A stretch of 64,000 nucleotides of DNA. It comes from Amphiura filiformis (taxonomy: Eukaryota > Echinodermata > Ophiuroidea > Amphilepidida > Amphiuridae). The position numbers and the translations under genes were made by a program. Below are positions 9,333-53,100 of the stretch, piece after piece. The stretch is taken from assembly GCF_039555335.1 (NCBI RefSeq), contig NC_092628.1:97096536-97160535 (forward strand), written 5' to 3'. The first letter of the stretch is position 1. Every line of letters starts with the position of its first letter. The notes beneath the pieces are model-generated. The model searched no databases. It was not told the origin of the DNA and saw only the letters and a list, made by a program, of their open reading frames with translations.

Positions 9333-12321
9333 TTGTAGATAACAATTAAATACACATTGCTATTTACTGTAGAAAACAGGTTCTCAACACTTAACCACAC
9401 ATTGCTATCTGCTGTTGATAACAGATAAATTTGGTATATTGATGGGACCACTTGCAAATTATCAGCGGCACACCCCTACCAAAACCAAACTTGAATACGC
9501 CCCCCTAACACCCCCTCCCCTCTGGTGGTCAGGTTTGGTACCAAATTGGTCTCTTTTTCCATCAATGATAAACTCACTTCATAGTTGCAGCATGGTCACC
9601 TGTGGTAGCAAATTGGTCCTTATCAGTGACAATTCAATAACTTGCATACTTTCACTTATGGTCATATGTGGTACCAAATTGGTCCCTATGGCCATCAGTG
9701 ACTATTCAATAACTTGCGTAGTTTCACTTATGGTCAGGTGTGGTACCCAATTGGTCCCTATTGACTGTCGGTAACAAACTCAATTTTGTCGTTTTGTAGT
9801 ATCCTCAGGTGTGAATCTAGAATGGTCCCTATGACCATCAGTGGCAAACTTGCTTTATAGTAGGCCTATGGTCAATTGTAGTACCAAATTGGCCCAATAA
9901 TTATCACTTTTTGCAGTGATATGGTCAAATGTGGTAGAGTATTTAATAGCTCCTGTGACTACCAGTGGCCAAATCACTTTACCGTATTCAGCATGGTCAG
10001 GTGTAGTACCAAATTGGTCCCTTTGATCATCAGTGACAAAATCACTTTGTAATTTCCCTTATGCTCATATGTGGTACCAAATAATTGGTCCCTATGACCA
10101 TCAGTGACAAACTCACTTTGTAATTTCCCTTATGGTCATATGTGGTACCAAATTGGTCCCTATGACCATCAGTGACAAGCTCACTTTGTAATTTCCCTTA
10201 TGGTCATATGTGGTAACAAATTTGGTCCCTGTGACAATCAGTGACAAACTCACTTTGTAATTTCCCTTGTGGTCATATGTGGTACCAAATTGGTCCCTAT
10301 GACCATCAGTGGCAAACTTGCTTTATAGTTTAAGTATGGTCAATTGTAGTACCAAATTGGCCCAATAACTATCACTTTTTACAGTGATATGGTCAAATGT
10401 GGTAGAGTATTTAATAGCTCCTGTGACTACCAGTGGCCAAATCACTTTACCATATTCAGCATGGTCAGGTGTAGTACCAAATTGGTCCTTTGATCATCAG
10501 AGACAAAATCACTTTGTAATTTCCCTATAAATGGTCAGATGTGGTAACAAATTTGGTCCCTAAGACCATCAGTGACAAACTCACTTTCTAATTTCCCTTA
10601 TGCTCATATGTGGTACCAAATAATTGGTCCCTATGACCATCAGTGACAAACTCACTTTGTAATTTCCCTTATGGTCATAGGTGGTACCAAATTGGTCCCT
10701 ATGACCATCAGTGACAAATTCACTTTGTAATTTCCCTTATGGTCATATGTGGTACCAAATTGGTCCCTATGACCATCAGTGACAAACTCACTTTGTAATT
10801 TCCCTTATGGTCATAGGTGGTTCCAAATTGGTCCCTATGGCCATCAGTGACTATTCAATAACTTGCGTAGTTTCACTTATGGTCAGGTGTGGTACCCAAT
10901 TGGTCCCTATGACCATCAGTGGCAAACTTGCTTTATAGTTTAAGTATGGTCAATTGTAGTACCAAATTGGCCCAATAACTATCACTTTTACAGTGATATG
11001 GTCAAATGTGGTAGAGTATTTAATAGCTCCTGTGACTACCAGTGGCCAAATCACTTTACCATATTCAGCATGGTCAGGTGTAGTACCAAATTGGTCCCTT
11101 TGATCATCAGAGACAAAATCACTTTGTAATTTCCCTATAAATGGTCAGATGTGGTAACAAATTTGGTCCCTAAGACCATCAGTGACAAACTCACTTTCTA
11201 ATTTACCTTATGCTCATATGTGGTACCAAATAATTGGTCCCTATGACCATCAGTGACAAATTGACTTTGTAATTTCCCTTATGGTCATATGTGGTACCAA
11301 ATTGGTCCCTATGACCATCAGTGACAAGCTCACTTTGTAATTTCCCTTATGGTCATATGTGGTACCAAATTGGTCCCTATGGCCATCAGTGACAAATTCA
11401 CTTTGTAATTTCCCTTATGGTCATATGTGGTACCAAATTGGTCCCTATGACCATCAGTGACAAACTCACTTTGTAATTTCCCTTATGGTCATAGGTGGTT
11501 CCAAATTGGTCCCTATGGCCATCAGTGACTATTCAATAACTTATGTAGTTTCACTTATGGTCAGGTGTGGTACCCAATTGGTCCCTATGACCATCAGTGG
11601 CAAACTTGCTTTATAGTTTAAGTATGGTCAATTGTAGTACCAAATTGGCCCAATAACTATCACTTTTTACAGTGATATGGTCAAATGTGGTAGCGTATAA
11701 TAGCTCCTGTGACTACCAGTGGCCAAATCACTTTACCATATTCAGCATGGTCAGGTGTAGTACCAAATTGGTCCCTTTGATCATCAGAGACAAAATCACT
11801 TTGTAATTTCCCTATAAATGGTCAGATGTGGTAACAAATTTGGTCCCTAAGACCATCAGTGACAAACTCACTTTCTAATTTCCCTTATGCTCATATGTGG
11901 TACTAAATAATTGGTCCCTATGACCATCAGTGACAAACTCACTTTGTAATTTCCCTTATGGTCATATGTGGTACCAAATTGGTCCCTATGACCATCAGTG
12001 ACAAGCTCACTTTGTAATTTCCCTTATGGTCATATGTGGTACCAAATTGGTCCCTATGACCATCAGTGACAAGCGCTCACTTTGTAATTTCCCTTATGGT
12101 CATATCATGTGGTACCAAATTAGTCCCTATGACCATCAGTGACAAACTCACTTTGTAATTTCCCTTATGGTCATATGTGGTACCAAATTGGTCGTGATGA
12201 CCATTAGTAATAAACTCACTTTGTAGTTGTACATGGTCGACCTGTGGCACCAAATTGGTCCCTACAACTATCAGTGTCAATTCAATAACTTAAAGCGTAG
12301 TTTCATTTATGGTCAGATGAT

Positions 12322-12585
12322 GGTGGCTGTGATATCGTCATTTTTGACGTTGCCATTGGATTAACACATAATCATGAAATCTTCACAAACAATTCTAAAT
12401 TTGTTATGTGGTGTCAAAGCAAAATTATCTTACTCTAAAACCTTGGGGTACAACAATGTACCCCACTGCAAGTATGTTGTTTTTCAATTTATAACTGCTG
12501 ACCGTCTATTTTGAATGGGGCTGTCAGCCTTGTATTTTCGCCAGCCTTGTATTTCCGCCAGCCTCGAGCGTCACATGTTGCGTGT
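12322..12585 (+). repeat. Dispersed repeat, uninterrupted copy
   Basis: About 264 bp matching 44340-44945 once a 349 bp insert is removed from that copy. It contains the empty TTAA target at 12361-12364. The repeat interrupts the minisatellite. Confidence 0.8.
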
Positions 12586-13280
12586 AATATGCAGCCTGGG
12601 TGTGGTAGCAAATTGGTCCCTACAACCATTTGAAAATTTGTAGCATGGCCAGTTGCCGTACTAAATTGGTCCCTGTGACCATTAGTAACAAACTCACTTT
12701 GTCATTTTGTAGTATGGTCAGGTGTGGTACCTATTTGGTCCTTATGACCATCAGTGACAAAATCAATTGATTAGTTTCATTAAATGGTCTGTGTGGTAAC
12801 AAAATGGTCCCTATAACCATGAATGATGCCTTAGCTCTAGACGTCAGCACTTTGGTGCTGTGTTTGTCAATTTAGTATCTAATTCATTGCTCTGATGAAG
12901 TGACTTACAGTATAACGTTCAGTTTTGTCAAACTATGACCATCAGTGACAAACTCACTTTGTAATTTCCCTTATGGTCATATGTGGTACCAAATTGGTCC
13001 CTATGACCATCAGTGACAAACTCACTTTGTAATTTCCCTTATGGTCATATGTGGTACCAAATTGGTCCCTATGACCATCAGTGACAAACTCACTTTGTAA
13101 TTTCCCTTATGGTCATATGTGGTACCAAATTGGTCCCTATGACCATCACTCAGTGACAAACTCACTTTGTAATTTCCCTTACGGTCATATGTGATATCAA
13201 ATTGGTCGCTATGACCATCAGTGACAAAATCACTTTATAATTTCTTTAATGGTCGTGGTTCCAAATTGGTCCCTAATTGA

Positions 13281-16978: not shown

Positions 16979-19900
16979 TCTTACTATAAATAGGGGAATG
17001 TTGTATGTATCTATCTATGTATCTATGTATGCACATAAAGGCTCCGTCAGTTTCGATCCAAATGTCACCAAATTCATACGGGAGATCGAGGAATATACGG
17101 AGACGGTAAAGCGAAAATTTGGTTGAAAACGGTCAAGAATTGGCCTCAAAATCAGTGAAAATGTGGTCCGTTGCTATACTAGGTAAACAAAAAAGGAGTC
17201 AGTTACTAAGCTAGCCCTGCGCGTCGCACGGGCGTATCTAATGCCAAGCCGCTCGCGTAGCGCAGCGATACCGCGCGGGTGACGCAGCACTACGCCATGG
17301 CACGCGTAAACGACGCAGAAACACGTAATGAACGATATTAACTAGTGTTGGCCGATACCGATCTGTGAATCGGAGATCGGTGCCGATATGGACTGCATCG
17401 GCCTTGAATCTGAATCGGCAGATGAGCTATCAGCTGCCGATCTAGCTACCGATCTCTGAACTTGACAGTAATAAAAGTACACAACAATTCTTTAAGCTTA
17501 CCATTACTTTCTTATGTAACATTACTACTATTTAATGCCAATATATTTCCAAAAACGTTGTTACCACCGCAAGAATCATGTCGTTTCATACTGTATTTTA
17601 TGTATGTATCCACCCTTTGATAGACCGAATTAAAATGTAAACAAACAATCAAGGTCAAATTTATTCAACAGTGAAAGCATGCAGCGATGATGTAATGACG
17701 TGTGCAGGGGACTCCATAAGTGGTTCGCCTCTACATTCCATTGTCCATTGTATAATAAAACCACAAAATATTATCCACTCAGTGACAACACTCCCGACTG
17801 TACAGTGCGTCCCTGGGAAAAATTTGTAAACACTTTAACAGTCGACATACGCGTGAAGTCCCTAAGCCCTTCAATGTCGGGTTTCCCAAGGTGAATTTGA
17901 GGGCATGTTATTTTTAGAATCGCGCACATTCTCGCTATTCCTCCTCACACGACGATTTCATCTCTTAATCTCCGAACACGTGAATTCTTTCTGTAAACAA
18001 CTCTGCACAACCAATCAGGATGGGAATTCCGTGGTATTCCCCAATACGTCATATGCATAAATTATTATAATATCGATGGAGCTGATTTAGCTGCAGGGTC
18101 ATCGAATCAATTCGCGCAGTGATTCGCCTAACTTATAAACACGCAAATCAAAGTTGATTCATGGAGAAGAAAGAAGAATAAAACAATCAAGAGAAATGGA
18201 TTAATGATTAAACTTCCGACAATCGGAGGCACTGAGTGAGTAACGCTGGGACTGTATATTTGATTTGATCAGCATCAGTAAAAAAATGTTGTTAGAAATT
18301 CAATTAACAATTTATTTAATCGTGAATGAATGTACTGTCTTAATATTCTGAATTCAAACAAAGTAAAATAAATATTGAAGTTTGAACACATTAAAAAATT
18401 AAAATGTAAATAAAGATAACACGCTTCTGTATAGAATGTTTTGTTTACAATAACCACAACATTCCTTGGCTGAATAACATTTTATCATGACCCAATTCCC
18501 AGGTCAACTATGGTCCAAGTTGTGTCCCCTTTTGTTTATGATTCGCGCTGTCTTCTGTGTAGAGTGTTTGTTTACAATCGTGACCCAATTCTCAGGTTAA
18601 TTACGGTCCAAGTTGTGCCCCCTTTTGTTTATGATTTGCCGCTGTCTGCACTCATGTCGCGTGTTTGGGCGGTCGGTGCCAAAGTTGAGCTCATGATTGC
18701 GACCGGACCACGTGCTCATCCTGCTTCGACCGCATCAAACAAGTTCATGCACATGCGCAACAGCTAGCTTGACGAAAAAAAAAGCATGATGCACGCTACT
18801 TCGGCATTTAAAAGAAATATAAATTCACACAGAAAATCAACAGACACGGAAAGTTTTTGGAATTAATTTTTATTGGAAAACGCAAATGTCAAGCTTTCAA
18901 CTGGATTATTTTGAGATGGGTTTCTGGAAATAGACAGAATGTTACGTTTTATCTACCAGCTTCAGATGGAACCGTTTTAAAGCATGATGATGAGGCAAGA
19001 ATGTAAGCTCTTTTTTTTAAATACGTGGTGATCTAAACTTGTCGGCAAAAAACTTAATTTTCCGCTTTTGAAAATTAGTCATGTTTATTTTAGGCACGGA
19101 TCGCCACGCATTCGGTATTTTCACACGTGTTTTCACGGTTTTGGTTGGAATTTGTGACATCACGGAAATCACGTTTTTGTCAAATGACCTCACGGATTTT
19201 GCCTTAAAAATCACGGGTTTTACCGGGCCTAGACTTGGGGTGTAAAATGGTATTTTATTTGGGTTGATATTGACATGAAAAACCTCTAAAACGGTCATCA
19301 TATTACATAGTTACAGGTTTGGGAATTAAGCTTTGACCGTTAACATTACTGGGGCCCGACTTGAATGAACTTGTACTGGTTGTAGAATAACATTTAAGGA
19401 ATCGAGATCGGATCGGCCCGATCTGCTAATTTTCAAATCGGAGATCGGCAGATCCGATCTTGGGTTGGATCGGCCAACACTAATATTAACGACCGTAGCG
19501 TAATAAATACGGGAAAAAGATGTGTGTTAAAAAGTACAAACAACATGAAGAGGTAGGCCTACTATAAATAAAAAAGAAAACAAAATGAGGACAAACAGGC
19601 TGTACGAGTATGTGGGTTATAGTTAGTCACAAAATGAAAACGGAAATAAAATAGGCTAAAGAAGGAAAAAAAGACACTCTTCAGGAAATGTAAGAAAAAA
19701 AGCTATAATAAGATCAGGAAATTTAAATAAAAAGGCTATTAAACTGAGGACAGAATTAAATAAATAACATGAAAATGGTAAATCACAAGCTATGCAGCGA
19801 ATAAAAAAAGAAGCTAAAAGGGAAATGTAAGAAAGGACAGATTTATAAAATAACAGGAACGGATTGAATAAATAAAAACACATGGTCAACGGAAAATCGC

Positions 19901-20121
19901 AAGCTTAGCGGCAGAATTTTTTTTAAATGGCACAAAATTGGCCCATGTAGAAGAAACTAAAAAGAAAGAAAGAAGTTCAAATGGAAACGTAGGCTTAAGG
20001 AGGGTCAGGTTCAGATAAATAAAAATGATTCTACCTGTTCAGTAATTCCTCCTGTTTTAGTGAACGCTCTCCCATTTACTCCCCTAGCGGGGACCCGCGC
20101 GTAGCGCGGGTGTCCCGCTAG
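16979..20121 (+). mobile_element. Non-autonomous Helitron, 3.1 kb
   Basis: It begins TCTTACTATAAATAGG and ends CTAG. A GC-rich hairpin (ACCCGCGC-GTA-GCGCGGGT, 20093-20111) lies 10 nt before the 3' end. It sits between A and T with no target duplication. These are the family hallmarks (5' TC, 3' hairpin then CTRR, AT target). The unoccupied site is seen at 39636/39637. No Rep/helicase ORF is present, so it depends on an autonomous partner. A hAT-like element occupies 17343-19482. Confidence 0.93.
17343..19482. mobile_element. hAT-like element, 2.1 kb, nested in the Helitron
   Basis: Ends TAGTGTTGGCCGAT...ATCGGCCAACACTA are flanked by an exact 8 bp duplication ATATTAAC (17335-17342, 19483-19490). 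Subterminal GATCGG/CCGATC motifs are dense at both ends, as expected for transposase-binding sites. An internal duplication repeats GGTCCAAGTTGTG (about 18510-18650). The short ORFs show no transposase motif. Confidence 0.9.
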
Positions 20122-20324
20122 TAATGAATTATTTATGACATGCATGGGCTGGATTTTACGATCAAGGTAAGGTTTTCGGCCTGTCCCTGCGTGAATATCC
20201 TTAGTTTTCAGCATGAAAGATACTTACGATGACCAGTTTTTTGCGGACACTTTGATAACAGGTAACTTTTATAGGTCATAGGGTAGAAACAATAGTTGTA
20301 CAATTGTACAACATATACTTAGGG

Positions 20325-20492
20325 ATTCAATCATGTTTCACCGTTGTTCATCACCGATTAACAACGATGCGTCAGCGTCGTCTGAGTGGTTTATTTGCGA
20401 GGGCAGCTTTAGCTGCCCGAGCGGCAAACCACGCAAACGCTGCTGGACGCGAGTTGTTAATCGGTGATGAACAACGTGAAACATGATTGAAT
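20325..20492. mobile_element. Foldback element, about 168 bp
   Basis: ATTCAATCATGTTTCACCGT at the left is matched by the inverted right arm ending ACATGATTGAAT. The arms run about 40 bp, with a second inner inverted repeat (GGGCAGCTTTAGCTGCCC). It is part of an insert (about 20320-20860) missing from the 39 kb host copy. Confidence 0.7.
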
Positions 20493-20779
20493 CCTTTCAA
20501 CAACGAAAAGAAGCTAAAAATCGTATAATTCACGATTATTTTATGAGGAATGTCAGTTCATCATTGCCACTCAGCCTTACAAAAACTTCGATGATTTCTC
20601 TTTTGATATCAGCAATAAAACTACAGAATAAACGGCAATGTTTAGCCGCTTCCTGGTAAATACTGAAATCAACTTGTAAGCTGGCATACGCACAAAGGTT
20701 CCAGGCATGACGAATTTTACGGCGCTCTCGCAGTAACGCCGTAGTCTCGCTTTCGCGTTGGCAGTATACGCTACAGTAA

Positions 20780-20860
20780 AAGTGTTGGTTCATCACGGAT
20801 TAACAACGGTTGGCTCCTGTACAAAGGTATAGGAAGAGTTGTTGAAATTTTGTTAATATC
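20780..20860 (+). repeat. Repeat shared with GLTP intron 4
   Basis: GGATTAACAACGGTTGGCTC...GTATAGGAAGAGTTGTTG matches 55838-55885 plus 56152-56170, where a hAT-like MITE splits it. It thus shows the empty target GGTATAGG. Confidence 0.8.
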
Positions 20861-21276
20861 TGGCCTAAAATGTTTACAAAAAATATATTGGTCCACACGT
20901 TGTGCATGTATTCAGTTGTTCGACGTATAGGCTTAACTGGTCGCATGTCACAAATAGGTCACCCAAAAATGGAGCAGCCGTAACATGAAAACGCTTTCTT
21001 CACACTTCAAGTTAGGTTTATTCTAAAAGTAATACCTATTGTAGAAAGTTTGTGTCATTTTGTAGATAATTATGTTCTTTTTCAATAATATCATTGCTAC
21101 ATATATAAAAAAATATATGAAAAAAAAAAAAAAAATAAGTGCAAATTTTGCACTCAACTTTTGACTTGATCCCTGGTGATACTGTACTCCGGGTACCCGC
21201 CCGTAAATTACATAAGGTACCCGGCACAAATAACTTGAAAATCACAACCCTACATTTAACTCAGGGCTATCTAGAT

Positions 21277-21773
21277 CAGGGTTCGCAGGTTTTTGCCGCA
21301 GGTGGAAAAAAACGTGGTTTTAACCGCGGTTTTAACCACTTGGCAAAAACGGTTTTTGCCAGTTTTTGCCGGCAAAAACTAAAAAAGTGATTTATAGTTC
21401 AGTTTTTTCATCTCAAAACAAATTATTAAGTTACAAAAATAAGTTCCCGAGTGTAACAAGGCCAGATTTTGTAATTATAAGCAATATATTAAGAAATTAA
21501 AAGCATGCGTTTTCATTGCTCAAGTGCATTTAACCGAAATGTAGCATGTATCAATTTCAAAACTTTTTCATTTCAAGGACTTGATGAGACAAAACATATT
21601 TTGAATGATTCGTTAAAAGTTGTGTGTTACTGTTTATGAGCTTTCTGTGTCACTTTTTAATATTTGAGTGACTATATGTGAGTTTTTGCCATTTTTGCCG
21701 GTTTAAACCAGGCAAAAACTGGCAAAAACAGCTTACCAGGTTTTTGCCACTTTACCGCAAAAACCGAACCCTG
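21277..21773. mobile_element. hAT-like MITE, 497 bp, upstream of ELOB exon 2
   Basis: CAGGGTTCG...GGTTTTTGCC at the left and ...AAAAACCGAACCCTG at the right are inverted. An exact 8 bp duplication ATCTAGAT flanks it (21269-21276, 21774-21781). GGCAAAAAC/GTTTTTGCC motifs are repeated near both ends. It lies about 170 bp before the ELOB splice acceptor, hence within the presumed first intron. Confidence 0.9.
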
Positions 21774-21945
21774 ATCTAGATGTAGTGTTCCAAACAGGGT
21801 CAGCCTGTTGTTTAGAATAAAAAATTATTCAATTGATTCTTGATGTTGTTTTTTTTGTCCTCATCTGTCGCATGCATTGTTACTTTTCGCTTAACATAAT
21901 TCATTCATTTGTCATAACTGTTTTACAACTTTACTTTTCATGCAG

Positions 21946-22680
21946 GATGTATTTCTAATGATAAGAAGACAAAAGACCACCATCTTCACAGATGCAAAAG
22001 AGTCCAGCACTGTGTACGAGCTCAAAAAGATCATAGAAGGGATAACCAAGAAATCACCAGAAGAGCAACAACTTTTCAAAGATGGCGAGATTTTAGAAAA
22101 CACCAAGACGTTAGGAGATTGTGGGCTGAGTGCAAATGTAGCCAAAGCCCAGGCTCCAGCATCACTAGGTTTATCCTTCAGAGTAAATGGTAAGAATGCT
22201 AAGAATGGGACATGTTTTAAGAAGCTTGAAACTCGTAATAAACTCAAGAACTTAATAGAGCCCAGTATCAAATTATGAGCTGAATCAATTTATAAGGCTA
22301 TATGATTTTCTAGGACTTCATGTGTGTTAAATTTGTTATATTATATGAATATAATAAATTTTTACCATGATGATGAAGTGCAGCAGGTTAGATAACAAAC
22401 ATTTTTGTACAGTTATCATAATTGTGGAGTGTGGACTACATGAAAATTCTGAAATGTGCACTAGTTAAATTACAAAGTATATAAATTAATCAAAGCAAAA
22501 GACAACTACAGAATTACCGTTTACTCATGGTTTTTTTTTAATTGTTTTTCCTTTCCAGTGGATACTGATGAATTTGAGCCATTGGAAATGACACCTTACT
22601 CTAATCCTCCAGAGTTGCCAGATGTAATGAAGCCAACAGATTCTAGCACAACAAATACAGTAGAACAGCCAGTGTCATAG
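21946..22680 (+). CDS. ELOB: Elongin B, two coding exons (first exon not placed)
   Basis: Coding exons are 21946-22189 (begins [12 protein letters not shown]) and 22559-22680 (ends EQPVS-stop), joined G|TG through a GT-AG intron; the reading frame agrees. Elongin B is the ubiquitin-like subunit that pairs with elongin C in the elongin transcription complex and in VHL/SOCS-box CUL2/CUL5 ubiquitin ligases. The ubiquitin-like fold spans exon 2. The conserved tail motif [10 protein letters not shown] is present at about residue 100. Predicted length with an initiator Met is 122 residues, against 118 in human. The acceptor (TTTACTTTTCATGCAG) precedes Asp2, so the Met should come from an upstream exon. 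The alternative is that the ATG inside the acceptor at 21940 is used, adding one Gln. Confidence 0.95.
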
Positions 22681-27273: not shown

Positions 27274-27557
27274 TAGGTGACGAAAAAAGAAAACCCTGTT
27301 CTACGGGCCAGACCGAACCCAGATTTTGAACAAATTGAAAAAAAAAATCCTGTACAAATGAATGCCGACCCTAATTTCAGAAATTTCAAGAACAATTTAT
27401 TTTTTTTTTTTTTTCTCAAATTGCAAATTACTTATAGATTCTGGTTATTTTTGGGTCATTTCAAAATAAAACAAAAACAAAACAACAGGCCGACCGACCG
27501 ACCCTACTTGAAAGGTCCGTCCACCCGTAGAACAGGGTTTCTTTTTTTCGTCGCCTA
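27274..27557. mobile_element. MITE with GACGAAAAAAG ends, copy 1
   Basis: TAGGTGACGAAAAAAGAAAA at the left and the inverted right end (CTTTTTTTCGTCGCCTA) both carry ACCCTGTTCTACGG. Inner CCGACCGACC repeats are present. A shorter copy is at 32639-32767. Confidence 0.8.
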
Positions 27558-28199
27558 AGATCCAGTAATGATTTTCAACTGATTTTGTTTTTAACCTTTT
27601 GATCCCTGCATGTGTTGGAACTAATGTACTAAGCCTAGATGTTGGTACAGGCTGTATCGAAATGATTGTTACCCATGTGTTTATGGTGTTTATTGATGAG
27701 CCTGCTTCTTTATTATGCAACATTGGATCCTCTTGTAATGCCCAGGATTTGTAGCTGTATGACCGTATATAACATAGTAATATCTGTAAATGTTGTATTT
27801 TAATGTGGTAGTCTTGTCTATAATCACTAGATGGGTACTAATCTTTTTGATACAGCCTGTACAGTGGATCCAAAAACACTTAAGGAGTTTTGGAGAGTGT
27901 AAAGATAGTGGCCTCATGTTTGTTTGAAGTTGTGAGGTTGGGGTTGTATAGCAGAAGCACTATACCATATAAATGCAATGTCCCCATAGTGTTAACTTTG
28001 AAAGGGAATGATGATGGAGCATAATTAATCTGGTATTATATAATAATGCTAAATTAGGAGGATGGTCTGATCAACAACCTCGTCTCCCTGTTTTCTCTGT
28101 CAAAATTGATATGTTGGTAACAGTGTAAAGAACACATTTGTCTAGTTGACCTTATGGAAAAATGGCCGAAAGATATTTTTTAAAGATTTTTTAAGCCAA

Positions 28200-29425
28200 A
28201 ATGTGTCTGGGTAGAGTAGGTTGTTGGGGTAGTGTGCTGGGGTGTCTTAGGGTGGGGTAGGATGTGGTAGGGTAGTTTGGTGGGGGTAGAGTGTGGTGGA
28301 TTTGTAGGGATAGTGTAGAGGGTGAGGGTGTGATGGGGTATGCTGGTAGTGTAGGGTGTTGGGTCAGAGTGTGGTGGGGTATAAGGGTGGTAGGGATAGT
28401 GGGGTCAGGGTGGGACAGTTAGGATGATGAGGGAAGTGGATGCTAGGGTAGGGTAGTGGGGTCAGTATGGTGGGGTATAAGGGATGGTGGGGTCAGGCTG
28501 TGTTGTAATAGGGGTAGTTATGGCGGTGGGGTATGGGATAAGGGTGTGATGGGTTTGGGTAGAGCAATGGGGTGGTAGGGTGGCAGGCATAGTCAGGACA
28601 GGGTGTGGTGGGGTGGGATAGGTGGTAGAAGTAGTTAGAATGGAGGTGGTAGGATGCTGGGGTAGTGAGGGTGGGGAAGTGGATGGGGTATGGATGGTGG
28701 GTTTGTAGAGTGGTGAGGTTGTATGGTGTTGGGAAGTGGCAAGGTGTGTGGTTGGATAGAGAGCTAGGGGTAAGTGGGATCAGGGTAGTGGGGCTTGGGA
28801 TAGGATGTATTGGTGTAGGGTGGTGGGGTCTGTGTGTGGTTTGGTTAGAGTGGTGGGTATAATGGTGGGATAGGGTGGTAAAGTAATGGGGTGGTGTGGT
28901 TAGGGTGGCAGGATAATGCGGTAGTGGGTTCAGGGTGTGGTGGGATAGGGTGCTGGGGAGTAGGGTGGTAAGGTATAAGGGTGGAGGGATAGTATAGGGT
29001 ACTGAAGATGTAGGGTGCTGGGGTAGTGGGTGAGAGTGGTGGGGTTGGGAGATATGTATGGGTAGTTAGGTTGGTGGGTAGGGTGTGGTGGGGTAGTTGG
29101 AGTAAGGTGTAAAGGTGGGTTATGGCAGTAGGGATATGGTGTGGGTTGTGGTGGTGGGTTTGGGTTTGGGTGTAGTAGAGTGGTGGGTCTTGTAGGGTGT
29201 TGAGTTGGGTAACTGAGGTAGGGTGTTGGGGGTAGTGGGGTCAGGGTGTGGTAGGGTGGAGGTCATAAGGGTGGTAGGGTAGTGGTGTAAGGTGTTGGGG
29301 TAATGGAATGAGGTGGTAGGGTAGGTGGTAGTATAGGTTAGTGGGTCAGCATATAGTGGAATAGAGTGCTGGGGATATAAGGGTGTGATAGGGTTGTAGG
29401 GGTAGGGTGGTGAGGGTAGTGTGGT
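28200..29425 (+). repeat. 1.2 kb G/T-rich low-complexity tract
   Basis: The + strand is a degenerate array of GGGTAGTG, GGTGGGGT and GGGTGTGGT words with almost no C. Runs of 3-5 G are closely spaced, so G-quadruplex structures are possible. ORFs across it are Gly/Trp/Val-rich artefacts. Confidence 0.92.
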
Positions 29426-29429
29426 AGGA

Positions 29430-30363
29430 AATTATAAAAATGAGTCAATTTTTAAAAACCACCAAAATGTTGTGATTTTTTTAAATCTAAACATCCATCT
29501 CAATAAATTGATATAATTTACATGAACATCAATAAATCTTTTTTGAAAAGATTTCCTATCTAAAATTAACATTTTTTGTTCAAAACTGGACAAAAATGAA
29601 ATTTTAGGCTAATCAAATTAATTGAATACTGATGATTTTGTTCATAGGTACTAAATATCCACTGTCATGTATCATTCAAAGTTTTTACCCCATCAAAAAT
29701 AATTTTGCAGCTAGTTAAAATCTGATATGTTTGGGTAAAAAAAAATTAAAAATCCATAAATAGGGTAACCGTTGTCATGGAAACGGAATAGAACTCATGT
29801 GTTACAAAGTTGGCAACATAGCAGTAAAGATTCTCAACACTCTTCTGAACAATTTGTTTAACATCCGAAATCGTTAAATAGATAGATACGCTGAATAGAT
29901 ACGCTAATTAAATAACCTATAACAGATGATAATTTACAAACCAACTTAATATATAGGCCTACATCAGACATAGCACAATACCTTCAGCAATCAGCATTGC
30001 ACAGTTGTGCATTGGCCTCATGGAATTAAATAAATTATATAATTCTGTTTATATGATGAATACGAGACGGCTACAGGTCATGCAGTGTATGGTCACCCGG
30101 AGGGGCAAGAATCAAATAGATTTGTTTACCACATAGTAGTAGTTACTATGACAACGGGTTAAGAGTCAAAATGTGGAATTTACATTCACCAGTGTTTAGC
30201 ACATATTACGTTTTAGAATGACTGCAAGACACAAGATAAGTTATTGAGTATCTTTGGTTTTTATCATACTCATCTACAGCGGCTTATGTTTGATCATGGT
30301 TTGATCATTTACGAATATGTATTATACCCGGATATTACAGAACCACAGTGTTATCTGTACAGT
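29430..30363. other. Upstream region of the unknown gene
   Basis: AT-rich sequence with no repeat pair seen. The open frame of the next gene extends upstream to 30244 without a stop. Its first ATG is at 30286; the better-context ATG is at 30364. CTACAG at 30274-30279 could be an acceptor if an earlier exon exists. Confidence 0.4.
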
Positions 30364-33300
30364 ATGGCTGAGGAAGAAGTTCTTGAAGAAATTCCACGTG
30401 AAGGAGAGTGCGAAAAAGACTGCTTTTTTGATGTTGACGAAGACTATTCAAATCGACTCCTGGAAAATTCGCTCTCGATATTCAACCCTTGTTTGTGCAG
30501 TTCTGACATAATGATAACAAAAACTCCATATTTTCTATCAAGTTGGGATCCTTGTGAAAATCATAAAGGATGTGAAGTCGATAACTATTCGTTTGGTGGT
30601 CATTTGGACGTCAAGGAAGAAAAGAAACGAGTTATGCATCGTTTTCCTGGTAGTTCGGGTGCGCTACCATTTGGAAATGAAAAGAAAAACGAGTTTGTGT
30701 TTCAGCACTATGATAGAAGAGATTCGTACATTGAACAATATCGTTACAATCATACATTTGGTGGAACGGGAAAGAGCTTACGAAATGCACAGATTGCGCA
30801 AACTCTTATTAGTTACTTGAAGAATGGCCAATTGAAATTTCCAATCATCAGGCAAGTTCATATAATTATCCATCCAAAAGTGCATGCACCCTAATTTCCA
30901 TGATTGATAATAATTATAGTTCTAAAGTCACATTTTCATATCATTTTAAGACTAGAATATTAGGCCTCGTAATACTATTAATAACAACATATCTTGTGTC
31001 GCTTTTACAGTTACACGTAAACAATAATACTCATAGTTTCTAACCCGCTGTAACCAAAAATGGCAACGACGTCATTCGATTATTTGCTTAGTATTTTAAT
31101 TAGAAGTACAAAGCATCTTGCTGTTGTTTTAATCAATAAGTAATTGTTGATATTCATTACCACATAACTTAATTTAGTCATCGATTTTAACGCTCTTTTT
31201 ATAGCATGTTTAGCCAATGACACTATTCGTTTTATTGACATAAATGGCTACACGCCTTCCTATCATTTACCGACCATGCCAACGACACCTTTTCAGCTCT
31301 TTTCATAACAAACTGTTATATTTGACTTAGATAAAATCAAATGCAGCAAGAATATACACTAGATTTGTTTCTACAAGATTGAAGTTGACGACTGACGCAT
31401 TTTATTATGTTCATAAGTACAGCTTTTTTGTCCAATATTCTTCTGGAGAGAATAAATGTTAACTTTTTCGCGTGTTTTTTACATTTTTTATTGATCCATT
31501 TAAGGGATCTAAAATGAGCGTTTATTGCGTTTCGACAGTATTTTTTGTGGGACATGAGAGCACCTCAGACCTATCGAATTGCATTCTGAATACGAAGCAT
31601 GTCTTTCTGATATCAAATAATTTTCATTTTTTGAAAATCACAATATAATACAAATTTTATGACAAATTATAAAAATTTGATATTTTTCAAATTTTTGATA
31701 TATAACAGTCCTCGAAGTAAATTATATAAATATAATGACATATTCTTAAAGTGTATGTAGCAGGGAGGAAAAGCCGACGGTCAATTGAAAATTTTGACCT
31801 TTCATATTGAAGATATGGATTTTTTCCCAAAAAGACCTAATTTTTTTTGGTGTTTTGGGAAAAAATCCATATCTTCAATACGAAAGGTCAAAATTTTCAA
31901 TTGATCGTCGGCTTTTCATCCCACCTACATACACGTTAAGTATAAATCATCAGATTTATAAAATTTACTTCGAGTACTGTTAAATATCAAAAATATCAAT
32001 TTTAATGATTTGCCATAAAATGTGTATTAAATTGCGAATTTCAAAAATCAAAATTATTTGATATCAGAATGACATTCTTCGTATTCAGAATGCAATTCGA
32101 TATGTCTGATGTGCTCTAATGTCCCACAATAAATACTGTCCAAACGTTCATACCCCAGCCCTTAAGGGAGCGATCGTTATTTATGGCAGTGGGGGAATGG
32201 GTAAATTTAGGGGGGGAACACGAAATTTTTTTGTGGTCTTGAGGGGGGAACCTGAAATTTTAGTTGAACCAGGAGGGGGATTGTTAAATTTTAAATGGAG
32301 AAAATTGGGAAAACAAGGGGAACGCGAAAATTTTGAGCGGACGCGAGGGGGGAACGCGAAATTTTTTGTCGATATATTTGCCAAAACACCCATTCCCCCC
32401 TGCAGTAAATAACGATCGGTCCCTAAACCATATTTAAAGTGCATTTACTTATTTCCAATCTTGTTCTAAGTTTTGGTTTTACTGCAAACACAGTAACATA
32501 CGGGATAAGCTGTGATACAAAGATGTTAACGTTAATTATGAACAAAAATTAATTAATGTTAATTATTAATATTATTATTTAATAAAAGTACGCTCAACAC
32601 TATCTTGGGTTAATAATAACATGGGATAACTAACTGCTTAGGCGACGGAAAAAAGAAACCCTGTTCTACGGGCGGACGGACCTTTCAACTAGGGTCGGTC
32701 GGTCGGCCCTTTTTTTTATCTTCTTATCGGTCGGGCCCGTAGAACAGGGTTTTCTTTTTCGTCGCCTTTGCTTTGTTGGTCATGTGTCTTATAGTATACT
32801 TTTGGAAAACTTCAAATTCAAACTTTCCGGGCAGTTATAAAAAATGTGCAGAAAATATTTGGGTGGTGTTTTCAGCTTTAAAATGCATTGCACACGCGAT
32901 TATAGAGAGCTGTGGTTTTCAAAAAAATATTGTGATTGATGTCTTCATCATTAGTGTATCTAAAACATGAAGATCCCTTTCTCTATGGATTGCATATACT
33001 TTCACCAATAAGTTTTCGTTTTGTCTTAGTTCTTCTTTTCTCTTTTTTTTCTCCTTCCTTTTCTCTCTTATCTCAGTGGTCACGATGTCAATCTAGTCAA
33101 CAGCGTTACCCAATTTGTAGAAACACCTGACTCAAGTTTACAATCCGGGAATTCCCCAACAAGAAATCCTCATCATGAAGATTTCACACCATCGCCAGGA
33201 CCACTAGGCTCTACAGTACAGAAATCATACAGCATTGCGACTAGGAGCTCACATGAAGGTGATTCACTCGTGCTTCCAAAAATTAAGTTTAGGGAAAATA

Positions 33301-34094
33301 TTCAGGGTCAAAGTAAAGTTAAGTCTTGCAAAGAACGAAAAGGGAACGCTAAAGGTAAAAGACCCTCGCACATGAGGTCTTCTGGTTTAGTTCAGCCTGA
33401 CGACAGGCCTACTGATCACGATATTAAGAGCAATTCCTATTGGTGGAACAACAATGAGCTGCCATACACTGGTAGGAAAGTTGTATTTCCTGAGAGTAAA
33501 GGTCGGTACTCTACTTTGTCAACCCGATCTGCAGATTTTGCCCTCGTTGGTTCTCCAGATTCTAAGAAAAAGAAGAGGCGTCCGGTTAGGACAAGTTTGG
33601 GAAGTTTGTCAAACAGTGGAGATTTGATTCAAGACTTATTAAACAATCGTGGTAAACTAGCTACTAAAGAGACCATTCAAAGTCTCATGAAATTTTTCAT
33701 TTCAGACAAAAGTGTAAAATCTGATGATGTTAGCAACTCTGAGTACGAAACATCCAAAGGCAATGGCATGAGTGGACATAAAAAAGACTTCGACTTCAAC
33801 GTAAACTATAATAGACGACATGGGGTAGGCCTACTCCTATCAAATGATGTCACCAATGAATTAAAAGTAAATGGAATTTCAAGTTCAAATGATGGCAAAA
33901 GAGCAGAAAGAAATAAGGGATCATCTACTCAATCCGGGCGTCGTCATATCAAAATACCGATTCGATATGCTTTGCCATTGTCCAAAGACACAGTGCTCCA
34001 AGGTGCACCATATCGAACAGTAGAACAACATAGACATGATCAAGAGAACTCTCGTAACAAAGAGGAATTGCTTAATTCGGTGTTAAATAGTTGA
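30364..34094 (+). CDS. Unrecognised two-exon protein, 501 residues
   Basis: Exons 30364-30851 and 33077-34094. The first ends ATCATCAG before GCAAGT, a strong GC-type donor. The second follows TCTCTTATCTCAG, and the join AG|T gives Ser163 with the frame open to a TAG stop at 34092-34094. The only GT nearby (30856) would put exon 2 out of frame. The start at 30364 (AGTATGG context) gives an acidic N-terminus, MAEEEVLEEI. Residues 1-162 are acidic to neutral with aromatic patches. Exon 2 is hydrophilic, Ser/Asn/Lys-rich and probably largely disordered, with an aromatic segment at about 285-300 (WWNNNELPYTG) and a KKKKRR nuclear-localisation-like cluster at 326-331. No signal peptide or membrane span is visible. 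I recognise no family. A non-globular regulatory, nuclear or cytoskeletal protein is possible, but this is a guess. Alternative start: 30286, adding 26 residues. Confidence 0.72.
31504..32161. mobile_element. 658 bp foldback TTAA element in the intron
   Basis: It is almost a complete palindrome centred near 31830, containing TTTTGTGGGACATGAGAGC and its inverted copy. TTAA is duplicated at 31500-31503 and 32162-32165, with GGG/CCC ends. It is the same family as 50361-51001 and the half-copy at 51045-51240. The TTAA target suggests piggyBac-type mobilisation. Confidence 0.88.
32166..32423. mobile_element. Harbinger-like MITE, 258 bp
   Basis: Ends GGGAGCGATCGTTATTTA and TAAATAACGATCGGTCCC are inverted. 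TAA is duplicated on both sides (32163-32165, 32424-32426). A 3 bp TWA duplication is typical of PIF/Harbinger. Its left target overlaps the TTAA of the preceding element. Purine-rich inner repeats (GGGGGGAAC) create meaningless ORFs on both strands. Confidence 0.8.
32639..32767. mobile_element. MITE with GACGAAAAAAG ends, short copy
   Basis: Same inverted ends as 27274-27557 (AGAAACCCTGTTCTACGGGC and complement), with a deleted centre retaining GGTCGGTCGGTCGG. It lies in the intron of the unknown gene. Confidence 0.8.
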
Positions 34095-34439
34095 CTTAAC
34101 CATGTTAACATGCTCAAGGAGGATGAGAAACAATATTCCACCAGGGTAAGCTGCTAATCGGACTATATAGCAAGATTGGTAACTGGCAATAATGACTGAA
34201 GACAAAAATGAAAGCTGACAATGATTCGACACTTTTTGTTCATGCATGAAAATTTAAGAGCATTACCGGTGCTTTACTATAGATCTCACACAGCTCTTAT
34301 GATGCTATGCACTCAACCGTGCAGTGCAGTATAAACGCAGATTGCGTAAAGGATAGACTCGCTGCGCTTGGAAATATCTGCGTGCTCGGGAATATCGAGG
34401 TGGAAACTGGGCGTAGATGCATTTATAAGATATTCGTTT

Positions 34440-34640
34440 TTGTACTCAAACCTTTTCAGGGCATTTGAGGTTAGGATTAGGGCTAAAATTAGAGTTAGGA
34501 TTAAGGTTTATAGTGTTATGGATAAGGTTAAGGGTCAAGTTATGAATGGAGTCAGGGTTATAGGTTTTATATATGCATATATTGCCCAAGTTATTGCTTA
34601 AGGGTTAAGGTTAGGGTGAAGTTTAGGGTAGGGTAAGGAT
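34440..34640 (+). repeat. Degenerate GGTTAGG-like repeat
   Basis: Irregular words GGTTAGGATTAGGG, GGTTAAGG and GGGTTAAGGTTAGGGTG resemble a decayed telomere-like or simple repeat. Too degenerate to be a true telomeric array. Confidence 0.6.
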
Positions 34641-34872
34641 TGGTCTTTATAATTCTTTTATTTGGTTTTTGGATGAATGACCCTTCGAATTATCGACCTG
34701 TAATCGATAAGACAAAAGAACCATTTGGATATTTTTCCAGTTTTTATCTTCTATTTTTCGGTCGCAATCCTGGAACTGATGATGGAAAGCGCGCATACAA
34801 TGCTGGTGCAATAATATTGCATCGCACTATAAATGATCATATGAAAATTAAAAAACATTTTTGGAAAAACAT

Positions 34873-35236
34873 GAAAGGTTTCTCAGGCCCCAGACATTTT
34901 AGGGAACCAGGAAAGGTTCCTCGCTCAGAGTAACAGAATATCATTTAATAACTAAATTAACCCCCTGCATATCACAAAGTAGAACTCAAGGTGAGATTAT
35001 CACATGCACGAACAAGATAAAGTATATAGTCCTTTAATTGATGTTAAGTCCCTTGCATACTTGGATGCAAAGTTATGAACTTTTTAATATCATTTTCTCA
35101 TCTGTGATTACTCGTATTGCCCCTTAGTCAAACATTATTGCCGATTGTGGTTTCAATTGATTGGATCAGATCGTGTCATACATAAAAGGTTCCTCAGACC
35201 TCATACCTTTTAGAGAACCACGACAGGTTCATCAGA
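34873..35236 (+). repeat. Two direct copies of a 53 bp motif
   Basis: AAAGGTTTCTCAGGCCCCAG at 34873 and AAAAGGTTCCTCAGACCTCA at 35185 begin related stretches that end in AGGTTCxTC. Origin unknown. The ORF at 34640-34933 crosses the first copy and is not supported as a gene. Confidence 0.5.
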
Positions 35237-36040
35237 ACTGCATTGATGAGCTCGGATCGTGAAGATCGATCTTGAAATAACTTATACAATTTCTGAAATG
35301 TTTTACTCGTTGCTCGATTATTAATAATAATATATATTCATTTACCATGTTTAACATATTAATAGCGTTAATGCCGTGTGTTTGCTGTTGTCAACTCCCA
35401 TCAACTCCCATCACATCAAATCAAGTGAAAAGTAACGTAATGTCAGTGAAGTGTGTACATCATACCTGCGTGGCCTCATTTTCGGTTGTGATCCCGGAAC
35501 TGAGAAACGCACGTTGCAGTGCAGTGCTAACTTGACCCTGCCCTGATTCAGCAGTCATGTATATTGCATATCCCACAAATTATTAGTTAACATTCATTTC
35601 AAGGCACATTTTGTATTACGGAAATAAGGGGCTTTTCATTTTTAATGCCGGAGGGGTGGGGTGGGAGAAATGAAGGGGTCGGAGCCTCGGAGGGTTATGT
35701 TATTTTCACTTTGACAAACAAGGGGGTTATGTGATTTTATTTTTCTTGGGGGGGTCATGTGAAATTTAACAAACACACACAACCCACTCACTCCTTAGTA
35801 CCACACACACTTAAAAATAGGTCGTCAAAAATGACCCTAATGTAGTCATTTTGACCCCATTTTCAGGGTCAACTACACACCGAACCCAGAAGTGTCAAAT
35901 TTGACCACGGTGATCAAGTGAAAAATTTGACCTAAATTGTAAATATATAGTTAACAAGGCGGTTCTCGAACCACGAGTCTCGCCTGCTTTTGCGACCGCC
36001 TGCTTTTGCGATTACTTTTGGTAGAGGTAAATGAATTTGA
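35237..36040. other. Gene-free stretch with GGTCA-rich sequence
   Basis: G-rich tract at about 35640-35760. 35811-35935 is rich in GACCC/GGGTC words related to 37612-37800, suggesting one element now split by the tandem array. No supported ORF. Confidence 0.4.
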
Positions 36041-37135
36041 CGGTTATCGGCTGGGCACGATTATCTGGCTGATGGTGACAGTACCCACCAAGTGTCATGC
36101 CCATGCAACATTTTTTACTAATTTGACCTCAGATGACCCCTGGTGGCCTCGAAATGATCTTCAGAAAATTTGGCTTTAAATGTTGACTGTATGCACCAAG
36201 TTTCATGCCCATACGACAGTTTTGACTAATTTGACCTCAGATGACCCCTGGTGACCCCGAAATGACCTTCCAAAAATGTGGCTTGAAATGTTGACTGTAC
36301 CCACCAAGTTTCATGCCCATACGACAGTTTTTACTAATTTGACCTCAGATGACCCCTGGTGACCCCAAAATGACCTTCCAAAAATTTGGCTTTAACTGTT
36401 GACTGCACCCACCAAGTTTCATGCCCATCCGATTCTTTTTACTAATTTGACCTCAAATGACCCCTGGTGACCTCGAAATGACCTTCCAAAAATTTGGCTT
36501 TAAATGTTGACCGTACCCAACAAGTTTCATGCCCATCCGACAGTTTTTACTAATTTGACCTCAGATGACCCCTGGTGACCTCGAAATGACCTTCTAAAAA
36601 TTTGGCTTTAAATGTTGACTGTACCCACCAAGTTTCATGCCCATCCGACAGTTGTTACTAATTTGACCTCAGATGACCTCTGGTAACCTCGAAATGACCT
36701 TCCAAAAATTTGGCTTTAAATGTTGACTGCACCCACCAAGTTTCATGCCCATCCGATTCTTTTTACTAATTTGACCTCAAATGACCCCTGGTGACCTCGA
36801 AATGACCTTTCACAAATTTGGCTTTAACTGTTGACTGTCCCTACCAAGTTTCATGCCCATACGACTGTTTTTACTAATTTGACCTCAAATGACCCCTGGT
36901 GACCTCGAAATGACCTTCCAAAAATTTGGCTTTAAATGTTGACCGTACCCAACAAGTTTCATGCCCATCCGACAGTTTTTACTAATTTGACCTGAGATGA
37001 CCCCTGTGACCTCGAAATGACCTTCTAAAAATTTGGCTTTAAATGTTGACTGCACCCACCAAGTTTCATGGCCATACGACAGTTTTTACTAATTTGACCT
37101 CAGATGACCCCTAGATGACCTCAGTGACCTTGACT
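36040..37135 (+). repeat. Tandem array, 108 bp unit, about 10 copies
   Basis: The word AAGTTTCATGCCCAT recurs at intervals of exactly 108 bp (36097, 36205, 36313, 36421, 36529, 36637, 36745, 36853, 36961), then 107 bp. Each unit also has TTGACCTCAGATGACC and AAATTTGGCTTTAAATG. Although 108 is a multiple of three, every forward frame meets a TGA in each unit, so it is not coding. Confidence 0.95.
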
Positions 37136-37358
37136 CACTAACCAATACAAACTGGTTCTGTCTCGGGTCAAGCTGCACCCACCCACCAAATTTGAGGAAC
37201 GTGCGACTCCTAGTCTCCGCGAAAATAGGCGGAAAGCAAACTTTAACCAAAACTTTAACCAAATTTGTCACATACACACACACGCCCCACACATACATAC
37301 GGAAAAGTGATTATATAGTCTCCTGCCTTATCAGGCGAGACAAAAATGACTACATTTA

Positions 37359-37611
37359 GAGACCGTTCACAAACACTTGTAAGGGGGGGCTGATGCAAAA
37401 AGGGGGGGCCCTGAAAATGTTTGACCCTCCTAAGGGGGCCCTGAAAAAATGACCAGTTTATATGCTTTTCTATGGGGTTGACCCATAATTTTCATGTCAA
37501 AAAGGGGGCCCTGAAATTTTTGAGGTCTGTAAAGAGGGGACCCCGAAAAATGTTCGCGATGAAATGTTGTTGCATCAGCCCCCCCCCTTACAAGTGTTTG
37601 TGAACGGTCCC
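37359..37611. mobile_element. Harbinger-like MITE, 253 bp
   Basis: GAGACCGTTCACAAACACTT and the inverted right end GTGTTTGTGAACGGTCCC are flanked by TTA on both sides (37356-37358, 37612-37614). The inside has AAGGGGGGCCCTGAAA repeats. Confidence 0.82.
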
Positions 37612-42830: not shown

Positions 42831-43029
42831 AATAAAGTAAGTAATGGAGATACGCATCCTGCACAAGAACAAATAAACACAATGGGGAACGATTGCCCGC
42901 TACAAGAGGAAACTGAATATATTTTTATAATCTGAACAGTTTACCAACCCAAAGTGTTACAATTAAACATGACAACAAATAAACACAAATCCTGACCGGC
43001 ACACAACCCAACTTGAAAAAAAAAAGAAT

Positions 43030-43104
43030 GTGCAGGCATGGGAATCGAACCCACGACCTTCCGATCTGTAGACGGACGCCTTATCCATTAGGCTACCAGC
43101 TCCC
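43030..43104 (-). tRNA. tRNA-like sequence, probably pseudogene or SINE head
   Basis: Minus strand: GGGAGCTGGTAGCCTAATGG starts at 43104, giving a D arm and A box like tRNA-Arg. The T arm is perfect, with B box GGTTCGATTCC (43041-43051). A run of T follows at once (43013-43024), a pol III stop. The anticodon loop CTACAGA would give ACA. The acceptor stem pairs poorly (about 4 of 7), and the top of the anticodon stem has a T-T mismatch. The sequence is therefore probably not a working tRNA. Confidence 0.6.
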
Positions 43105-50100: not shown

Positions 50101-53100
50101 AATTTTGAGACAAACAAGTGAGGTAAAGCAACGAAAATTTGAATTTACTTCTAGCGCCAATGTGTGTTATCTCCTGCGGTTGTAATACGATACTACCCTT
50201 TGATGTTTGTGTCCCTCACGCCGTGTACGTAGGCCTATTGTGTTATGAACATCGCAAATGTGTTTGACGTATACAATATTTCCATTGTAATAATAAACCG
50301 TCTTATTAAGCGTGCCTGTAGCAGGAATACTACCGCATTTCTATAATAATACTCAGTTAAGGGATGGGGTATAAACATTTGGACAGTATTTTTTGTGGGA
50401 GATGAGAGCACACCAGAGATATCGAATTGCTTTCTGAATACGAAAAATGTATCGAGTAATTTTGATTTTTTGAAATTTGCAATGTAATACACATTTTATG
50501 GCAAATAATTAGAAATTGATATTTTTGGTATTTAACAGTCCTTGAAGTAAATTTTATAAATCTGATGATATGTACTTTTAAAAGTGTATGTAACTGGGAA
50601 GAAAAGCCGACGATCAATTGAAAATTTTGACCTTTCGTATTGAAGATGGATTTTTTCCCCAAACACCCCAAAAATTAGGTCTTTTTGTCTTCAAAAAAAA
50701 TCTTCAATATGAAAGGTCAAAATTTTCAATTGATCGTTGGCTTTTCCTCCCAGCTACATACACTTTAAGTACATATCATTAGATTTTTAAAGTTTACTTT
50801 GAGGACTGTTATATATCAAAAATTTAAAAAATATCAAATATGAATAATTTGTCATAAAATTTGTATTATATCGCGAATTTCAAAAAATCAAAATTATTTG
50901 ATATCAGAAGGGCTTTCTTCGTATTCAGAATGCAGTTCGATATGTCTGATGTGCTCTCATGTTCCACAAAAAATACTGTCGAAATGCTCATTCCACATCC
51001 CTTAAGTTGCCGACGCAATATTGCGCTGAGAACTTTAATCTTAAGGGCTCTGTAACCCACCTTTGTGTGCAGTATTTTTTTGTGGGACCTGCGAGCACAT
51101 CAGACACACCAAATATACATTCTGAATATGAGAAATGTCCTTCTGATATCGAATAATTTAGATTTTTGAAATTTGTGATATAATACAAATTTATTGCAAA
51201 TTATTAAAAACAGTCCTCAAAGTAAACTTTATAATTTATATTACCGTATTCGTTCCAATAACCGCCCATGCCCCAATAAGCGCCCACCCAGCGACTTTGC
51301 AACAAACACAATATGAAATTATTAACCGCCCATCCAATGTTGTCAAAATTCTTCCAGTAAGCTTACCTGTCGAGTGAATTTACATGCATCAAAAGTATCC
51401 AAAATGTGCACCAAAATTAAATTATGACGCTATTTCATTGTGGGCAGACGTATAGATATTAAAAATACTTCACAATAACCGGACCTGCAAATGCCTTTAA
51501 AAGGCCAAGTTTGAGGATTTTCTAACTCAAAATCGTATTTTCCGGCGGCGGCCATCTTTGTTAGTGCGCCCTCAAAAACATTGTCAATATAATATTAATA
51601 ATTATATATACACACTTTGTGAGGGCACACTAACTGTGAGTAACTAAATACTTTCAGACGGTGATTGATGACTAAAAACAAGGTAAAAAATAAGCGCCCA
51701 CCCAAAATGACTTTGTTAAGCGCCCTGGGCGCTTATTGGAATGAATAGGGTACTTCAGAAATAAATCAATTTGGAATGTCAAATTTCAGGATGGTATGAT
51801 ACCAAAATCTCATCAACAATGAGTAAATGGGGGGGGGGATGAGGCTGTCAATAGGGTCACAGGCCTTTAAATACAGAAAAATACCCACAAATATTGTGCT
51901 TTAAAATTTTAGTTGAAAACAAAATTTCACTACTAAGGTTAGGGGAACAACTAAATGTTTAGATTATTTTGTATTAAATTTTGGTTTGTAAAAGCATTTG
52001 CATCCATCGGTTGTGAGTGATCAGCAAAATTATAGCTGGTAAACTAATACCCCATTGGCTTTGTTAATTTGCCAGCGAAGTGTTACGTGTAATCCGATTA
52101 TCACTATGTCAACTGGATCATGCTTTTGAGTTCTGCACCACGATCAAAATGATCGCAACACAAAGTCTATGGCATGTAGTACCAATTCCAAAAGGTGCAT
52201 GATCCAGTTACCAAGGAGTTATGTAACCATTTCGCTGGCGAATATACAAAGCAGCCAAATGAAATGTTAAATTTAGTTCTCATGTGACTAACGAATTCAT
52301 TGTGGATCCTTCATAGGACTTTAAAGTTGTGCAACAGTGTACATAATGTATGTAGTAAAGTGTGTATTAGATATCCATAGTTGGATAAGCATGAGCAGGA
52401 AATGATTACCATGCAGACTTAGTAAATTCCAGACTAGCTTACAAACAATTCCATTGTATGGTTGGCATGACAGTATGTGTGTTTACCAAAATTGTAATTT
52501 AGAGTGCTCCAAAATCAGAACCAGTGATATTGCTAATTATTTTCTTTTGCCAAGTGAAACATATCTAAATCCTAGTCCTTTAAAAGTCAAATTTTAATAT
52601 CTCTGTAATATGGAGGAAGATGGGCCAAAAACATGCAATTGCGCATGTTTTCTTACAATTGGAGTCACAAAATTCAAAGACAAGTTTGGTACGAGTCTAA
52701 GCATGCAAAGTTAGCTCATACTTTTAATATATTCTATTATGTTTGATAAGTGGAAATTAGTTGTTACATGATAAAGATTAGAAAATATGTTTTCCACACA
52801 AATTAAAAAACTTACTGTGAAATTAGTACAAGTCTTTGGGTTTGATTGTCAATGGATATGAAAATGCCATAAAAATGCATCTTTTTGGCCCATTTTTGCA
52901 AAAATTGACCAAATATTAAAAATTTGACTTTCATTGCCAGTTAGAACTAACTAACAGATTTCGTTTAGCTCTGTTTCATTTGGCAAAACAGAATTATTAT
53001 TGAATCCCCAATTATAGAATCAAAAAATGTATTTTGCTTTTTGAAAAACCATACACACATACCCAAACCAACACTTACATACAATCATACATGTACACAT

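Follow-up and report, generated by a model that had tools for sequence, protein, structure and literature searches.

GC-AG introns are a known U2-type class, the major one among the non-canonical introns. A survey of 489 animal genomes puts their share at 0.983% of all animal introns and the average gene at 6.95 introns (PMC7072748), and from these averages approximately one gene in 15 is expected to carry one. Their share in human protein-coding genes is 0.8% for junctions and 1.2% for first introns. Their average length is lower and their donor and acceptor sites are on average weaker, and in human and mouse the acceptors are given as weaker and the pyrimidine tracts as shorter on average (PMC7242645). 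GC donors lie nearer to the consensus at the remaining positions, and are enriched in alternatively spliced genes (PMC2490688). Regulated GC donors are described for intron 10 of C. elegans let-2 and for human ING4, where the donor is the weaker one and its non-use alters the protein; in ING4 it is a nuclear localisation signal that distinguishes the isoforms (PMC7242645, PMC2490688).

The locus presented here lies in a window of 64,000 nucleotides, the whole stretch of DNA that was analysed, from Amphiura filiformis (contig NC_092628.1, positions 97,096,536 to 97,160,535). The reading we favour, with a probability of roughly 0.7, is a protein-coding animal gene of at least two coding exons, whose GC-AG intron would be spliced by the major (U2) spliceosome. 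Like the described U2-type introns, this one has GC at +1/+2 within an otherwise near-perfect MAG/GNAAGT context, here a strong (A/C)AG/GCAAGT, and ends in AG at a good acceptor preceded by a polypyrimidine tract. It differs from them in an acceptor and a tract that appear to be above the average strength given for human and mouse in PMC7242645, a comparison made by eye and not on one scale, which would count against the favoured model; in addition, the predicted intron is swollen by transposon-like elements. By analogy with let-2 and ING4, a weaker donor whose non-use alters the protein would be found here too, with the difference that the alternative considered for this gene is intron retention. 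The sequence-only reading that first drew attention to the locus had called GC donors rare. With about 1% of animal introns, the class is uncommon but well known, so the intron is not very surprising and that part of the reading was overrated. We read the locus as an ordinary gene whose intron is of a known kind.

Open frames and coding signal

The forward strand contains two long open frames, 2.1 kb apart, at 30217-30894 and 33030-34094, both end coordinates including the stop codon. The first (ORF1) has 225 codons from stop to stop with an ATG at 30364, and the second (ORF2) has 354 codons. Each is longer than the longest open frame in every one of 200 simulated order-2 Markov windows, in which the longest frame averaged 151 codons, with a maximum of 217 and none reaching 225. 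With stops as frequent as in the remainder of the window (0.062), open runs of these lengths have probabilities of about 6e-7 and 1.5e-10, respectively. The next longest among the open frames listed, 190 codons on the reverse strand (28493-29065), lies within simple GGGT-rich sequence. The degenerate GGGT-rich repeat tract at 28000-29450 has an extreme GC skew (0.655 over 28001-30000), and the five long reverse-strand open frames in it are probably spurious.

The proposed gene model has the following elements (slashes mark exon-intron boundaries):

30364..30851, forward strand: coding exon 1, 162 codons plus 2 nt; start ATG flanked by A (-3) and G (+4); inside the 225-codon stop-free run
30852..33076, forward strand: putative GC-AG intron of 2,225 nt; donor CAG/GCAAGT, acceptor TTATCTCAG/TGG
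33077..34094, forward strand: coding exon 2, 1 nt plus 338 codons plus stop TAG
30270..30279, forward strand: possible upstream 3′ splice site, ..CATCTACAG/CGG, with first exon base 30280; weak, rank 84 of 3,190 AGs; open frame

The three-base asymmetry of the joined coding sequence exceeds that of all 4,000 random, overlapping control stretches. Taken separately, exon 1 is matched or exceeded in asymmetry by 0.98% of 5,000 controls, and exon 2 by 0.3%. No three-base periodicity is seen in the last part of ORF1 (30658-30849, equalled or exceeded by a fraction of 0.42 of controls) or in the intron stretch 30894-31493 (0.83). The coding sequence has open frames beyond chance together with coding periodicity, with the exception of 30658-30849, which taken alone is not periodic. 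The codon usage of the two exons agrees only weakly, a point against the model: exon 1 scores -5.88 when judged by exon 2, compared with a control mean of -6.07 and a 99th percentile of -5.77, and exon 2 judged by exon 1 scores highest in its own frame of the six, a ranking made without a random control.

Exon 1 may have a 5′ partner exon, joined through the acceptor at 30280. Beyond exon 2, a strong GT donor, AGG/GTAAGC, is located at 34146, its first intron base being the 52nd after the stop codon, and a 3′ UTR intron is possible. A further point against the model is that the interval 34000-37500 contains neither AATAAA nor AGTAAA; the polyadenylation signals seen there are limited to TATAAA (34330 and 34828) and ATTAAA (34847). 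A search of the window for a second copy of the gene gave nothing convincing, the next-best tblastn match having an E value of 0.56.

The proposed GC-AG join and its intron

Exon 1 ends in ATCATCAG at 30851, GCAAGT opens the intron at 30852 and exon 2 begins at 33077. The join is in phase 2 and splits a serine codon (AG/T). The coordinates and letters of this model had been given correctly by the sequence-only reading, and joining 30364-30851 to 33077-34094 reproduces its product of 501 residues. Its statement that the GC donor sits in a strong consensus also holds: scored without the dinucleotide, the context CAG/GCAAGT reaches 8.6 of a possible 8.9 bits and ranks first among the 2,197 GC sites of the forward strand, while none of 2,197 on the reverse strand matches it, the donor and acceptor matrices being approximate and not trained on Amphiura filiformis. 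The acceptor before 33077 ranks fourth of 3,190 forward-strand AGs. As a control, the same matrices give 8.2 bits for the donor at 22190 and 9.1 and 8.4 bits for the acceptors at 21946 and 22559, the GT-AG sites of the Elongin B (ELOB) gene in the window. A donor-acceptor pair as good as that of the GC-AG intron, in the same phase, occurred in 8 of 9,974 random placements. In itself the 9-mer MAGGCAAGT is no rarity (two in the window against 1.17 expected, and at least two in 35 of 100 shuffles); what counts is its place, its phase and its partner acceptor.

In the proposed splicing of this intron, U1 snRNA would pair with CAG/GCAAGU at every position except +2. The donor is one T-to-C change away from the perfect GT donor CAG/GTAAGT, and the GC would most likely have arisen from GT by that change, which may have been tolerated thanks to the otherwise perfect site. 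Because of the same closeness, an ordinary GT-AG intron is also possible, in which the C at 30853 would represent a base error, an allele or a very recent mutation; the gene model would then be right and the GC donor not fixed. This C is indeed the sole difference from a perfect U1 complement, and in the primate and rodent lineages 298 GT-to-GC changes were inferred compared with 40 in the opposite direction (PMC2490688). Against this alternative, the same source describes a strong context, such as the one found here, as typical of GC donors. On balance we regard a donor that is not fixed as unlikely.

The following elements were delimited within the intron:

30852..30894, forward strand: read-through of the exon 1 frame; with the intron retained, the protein would stop at 176 aa
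31528..32146, no strand assigned: MITE-like element of nested inverted repeats; other copies at 50357-51209
32162..32427, no strand assigned: second inverted-repeat element, arms 32162-32194 and 32395-32427
32637..32759, no strand assigned: third repeat element, relatives at 27274-27559
33028..33076, forward strand: long polypyrimidine tract before the acceptor, read from the sequence

Both splice sites lie outside the three delimited repeat elements. The MITE-like element of 31528-32146 and 50357-51209 has several copies in the window, which are 80-87% identical. The branch-point motif YTNAY occurs in 32950-33077 only at 33001 (A at 33004) and at 33067, and the latter is too close to the acceptor. 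Use of the motif at 33001 would leave another AG (33028-33029) ahead of the acceptor, and any A that follows this AG is too close to the acceptor for a branch point. A looser candidate found by eye is CTTAG, with its A at 33028, 48 nt from the acceptor and with no other AG between, and this A would be the simplest choice. In the favoured model the branch point would thus lie near 33028, and the long pyrimidine tract would define the acceptor at 33076.

Other ways of joining the frames

The claim that the two frames join only if the intron starts with GCAAGT is not borne out. With GT or GC donors in 30424-30894 and AG acceptors in 30900-33700, 719 single-intron joins leave the frame open to 34094. 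In 25 of these the acceptor is the one at 33077 or 33030, and within this group the GC join comes first, with 18.9 bits compared with 14.9 for the next. Over the full set, the highest sum (19.1 bits) belongs to an ordinary GT-AG intron with the donor CGG/GTGCGC at 30659 and the acceptor TTCTCCAG/AT before 33559, which would encode a protein of 276 residues. This join requires no rare dinucleotide, and the part of ORF1 that it drops, 30658-30849, is the one that is not periodic. It would, however, lose 675 nt of open sequence in the right frame (193 nt from exon 1, 482 nt from exon 2), including 33078-33557, whose 160 open codons have a probability of about 4e-5 and whose periodicity is reached by a fraction of only 0.0145 of controls; it also passes over the stronger acceptor at 33077 (12.2 versus 10.7 bits). 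It seems distinctly unlikely that this is the intron of the gene, and its use for an alternative isoform is possible.

A GT also lies close to the GC donor, in the context CAA/GTTCAT at 30856. It had been dismissed on the ground that it leads to an early stop, and spliced to 33077 it does so after 17 codons of exon 2. Spliced to the AG before 33030, by contrast, the frame stays open, giving 518 residues; a spliceosome that scans onward from a branch point near 33004 would reach this AG first. The sites are poor (-2.4 bits for the donor and 4.3 for the acceptor), and the join would turn the polypyrimidine tract into coding sequence, adding FFFSLFFLLPFLSYLS to a hydrophilic protein. We consider it highly improbable.

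Finally, the two frames may belong to different genes, or to one gene in which they are linked through further exons. With a threshold of 4 bits per site, 52 joins were found that pass through one internal exon with GT donors, and the best of these sum to 31.3 bits, over four sites and hence not directly comparable with the sums of two; the acceptor at 30280 would likewise be a possible entry for an upstream exon. The best internal exon, however, starts at 32167, within the left portion of the repeat element 32162-32427; it depends once more on the donor at 30659, and its donors reach no more than 4.5 bits. ORF2, moreover, has no in-frame ATG upstream of 33372 and therefore wants an upstream exon, which argues against it as a gene of its own. 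Neither arrangement appears at all likely. Although other joins exist, the GC-AG reading is the best of those compared. We regard the gene model as probable, and the single model best supported by this sequence is a coding unit of two exons with the strong-consensus GC donor at their junction. Annotation software that accepts no donors other than GT would cut such a gene short at 176 residues, or else miss its second exon or part of it.

The predicted protein and its surroundings

The joined protein has 501 residues and a mass of 56.5 kDa; it is hydrophilic (GRAVY -0.91) and contains 12.4% serine. The product of exon 1 is acidic (pI 5.1) and that of exon 2 basic (pI 9.8). A KKKKRRP stretch at residues 326-332, in the basic C-terminal part, is a possible nuclear localisation stretch, and the protein is probably largely disordered. 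The structure prediction that had been suggested was run on each exon from the single sequence and was uninformative, the mean pLDDT being 32.6 for exon 1 and 42.8 for exon 2, both of very low confidence. Values this low are what one expects for a disordered or orphan protein, and nothing can be concluded from them.

If the weaker GC donor were left unused, the intron would be retained and the protein would end at 176 residues, without the basic part. From this one could picture the GC donor as a fixed switch in a gene confined to this animal group, where use of the donor gives the 501 residues with basic tail and nuclear signal, and non-use gives an acidic, retained-intron form of 176 residues; we think this quite improbable. 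Should the favoured reading be right, the locus adds one more animal gene without an identified family and one more GC-AG intron.

The product had been said to match no recognised family and perhaps to be lineage-specific; on the first point, no credible match was obtained in Pfam or the PDB. At E values up to 10 the joined protein and exon 2 have no Pfam match, and the longer ORF1 from 30217 has none at E up to 0.1. Exon 1 with the intron read-through gives only Acyltransf_C at E 0.16, below the curated cut-off of the Pfam model. Searched by sequence against the PDB at E up to 10, exon 1 gives nothing, and the one hit, an ABC transporter (E 0.38 with the joined protein, 0.24 with exon 2), was judged to be noise. 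Pattern searches of viral contigs gave 10 matches for exon 2 and 4 for exon 1, and those of prokaryote genomes, with exon 2 as the only query, gave 107; tblastn found no relative in either set.

The N-terminal region of KIAA2012 shows, by eye, a similar strand-strand-strand-helix order. Its local alignment score of 45 is reached by 0.7% of 1,000 shuffles, for a single candidate sequence chosen post hoc. The best local alignment lies elsewhere than the motif that suggested the candidate, and exon 1 has no Pfam model above the cut-off. The likeness is offered as a lead and is not claimed as homology.

Other features of the window were also recorded. Judged by its content, an ELOB gene and several MITE-like repeats, it is eukaryotic and very probably animal. 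The ELOB gene (21946-22189 and 22559-22680, forward strand) has two exons and a GT-AG intron, and encodes 122 aa with an ATG put in front, approximately 52% identical to human ELOB; a search of 18001-21940 with one pattern did not find an upstream exon with its own ATG. ARAGORN reports a tRNA-Cys with the anticodon aca at 43029-43102 (reverse strand), and the Rfam tRNA model scores 44.2 bits at 43031-43100. The anticodon ACA would read the Cys codon UGU, while the usual Cys anticodon is GCA, so the element may be a tRNA-derived repeat or pseudogene. Tandem arrays occupy several pieces of 9592-13275, with a 68-nt unit (ATGGTCATATGTGGTACCAAATTGGTCCC...) and higher-order periods of 136-140 and 470. 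A further array at 36072-37122 consists of 9.7 copies of a 108-nt unit, a multiple of 3, with 90% matches.
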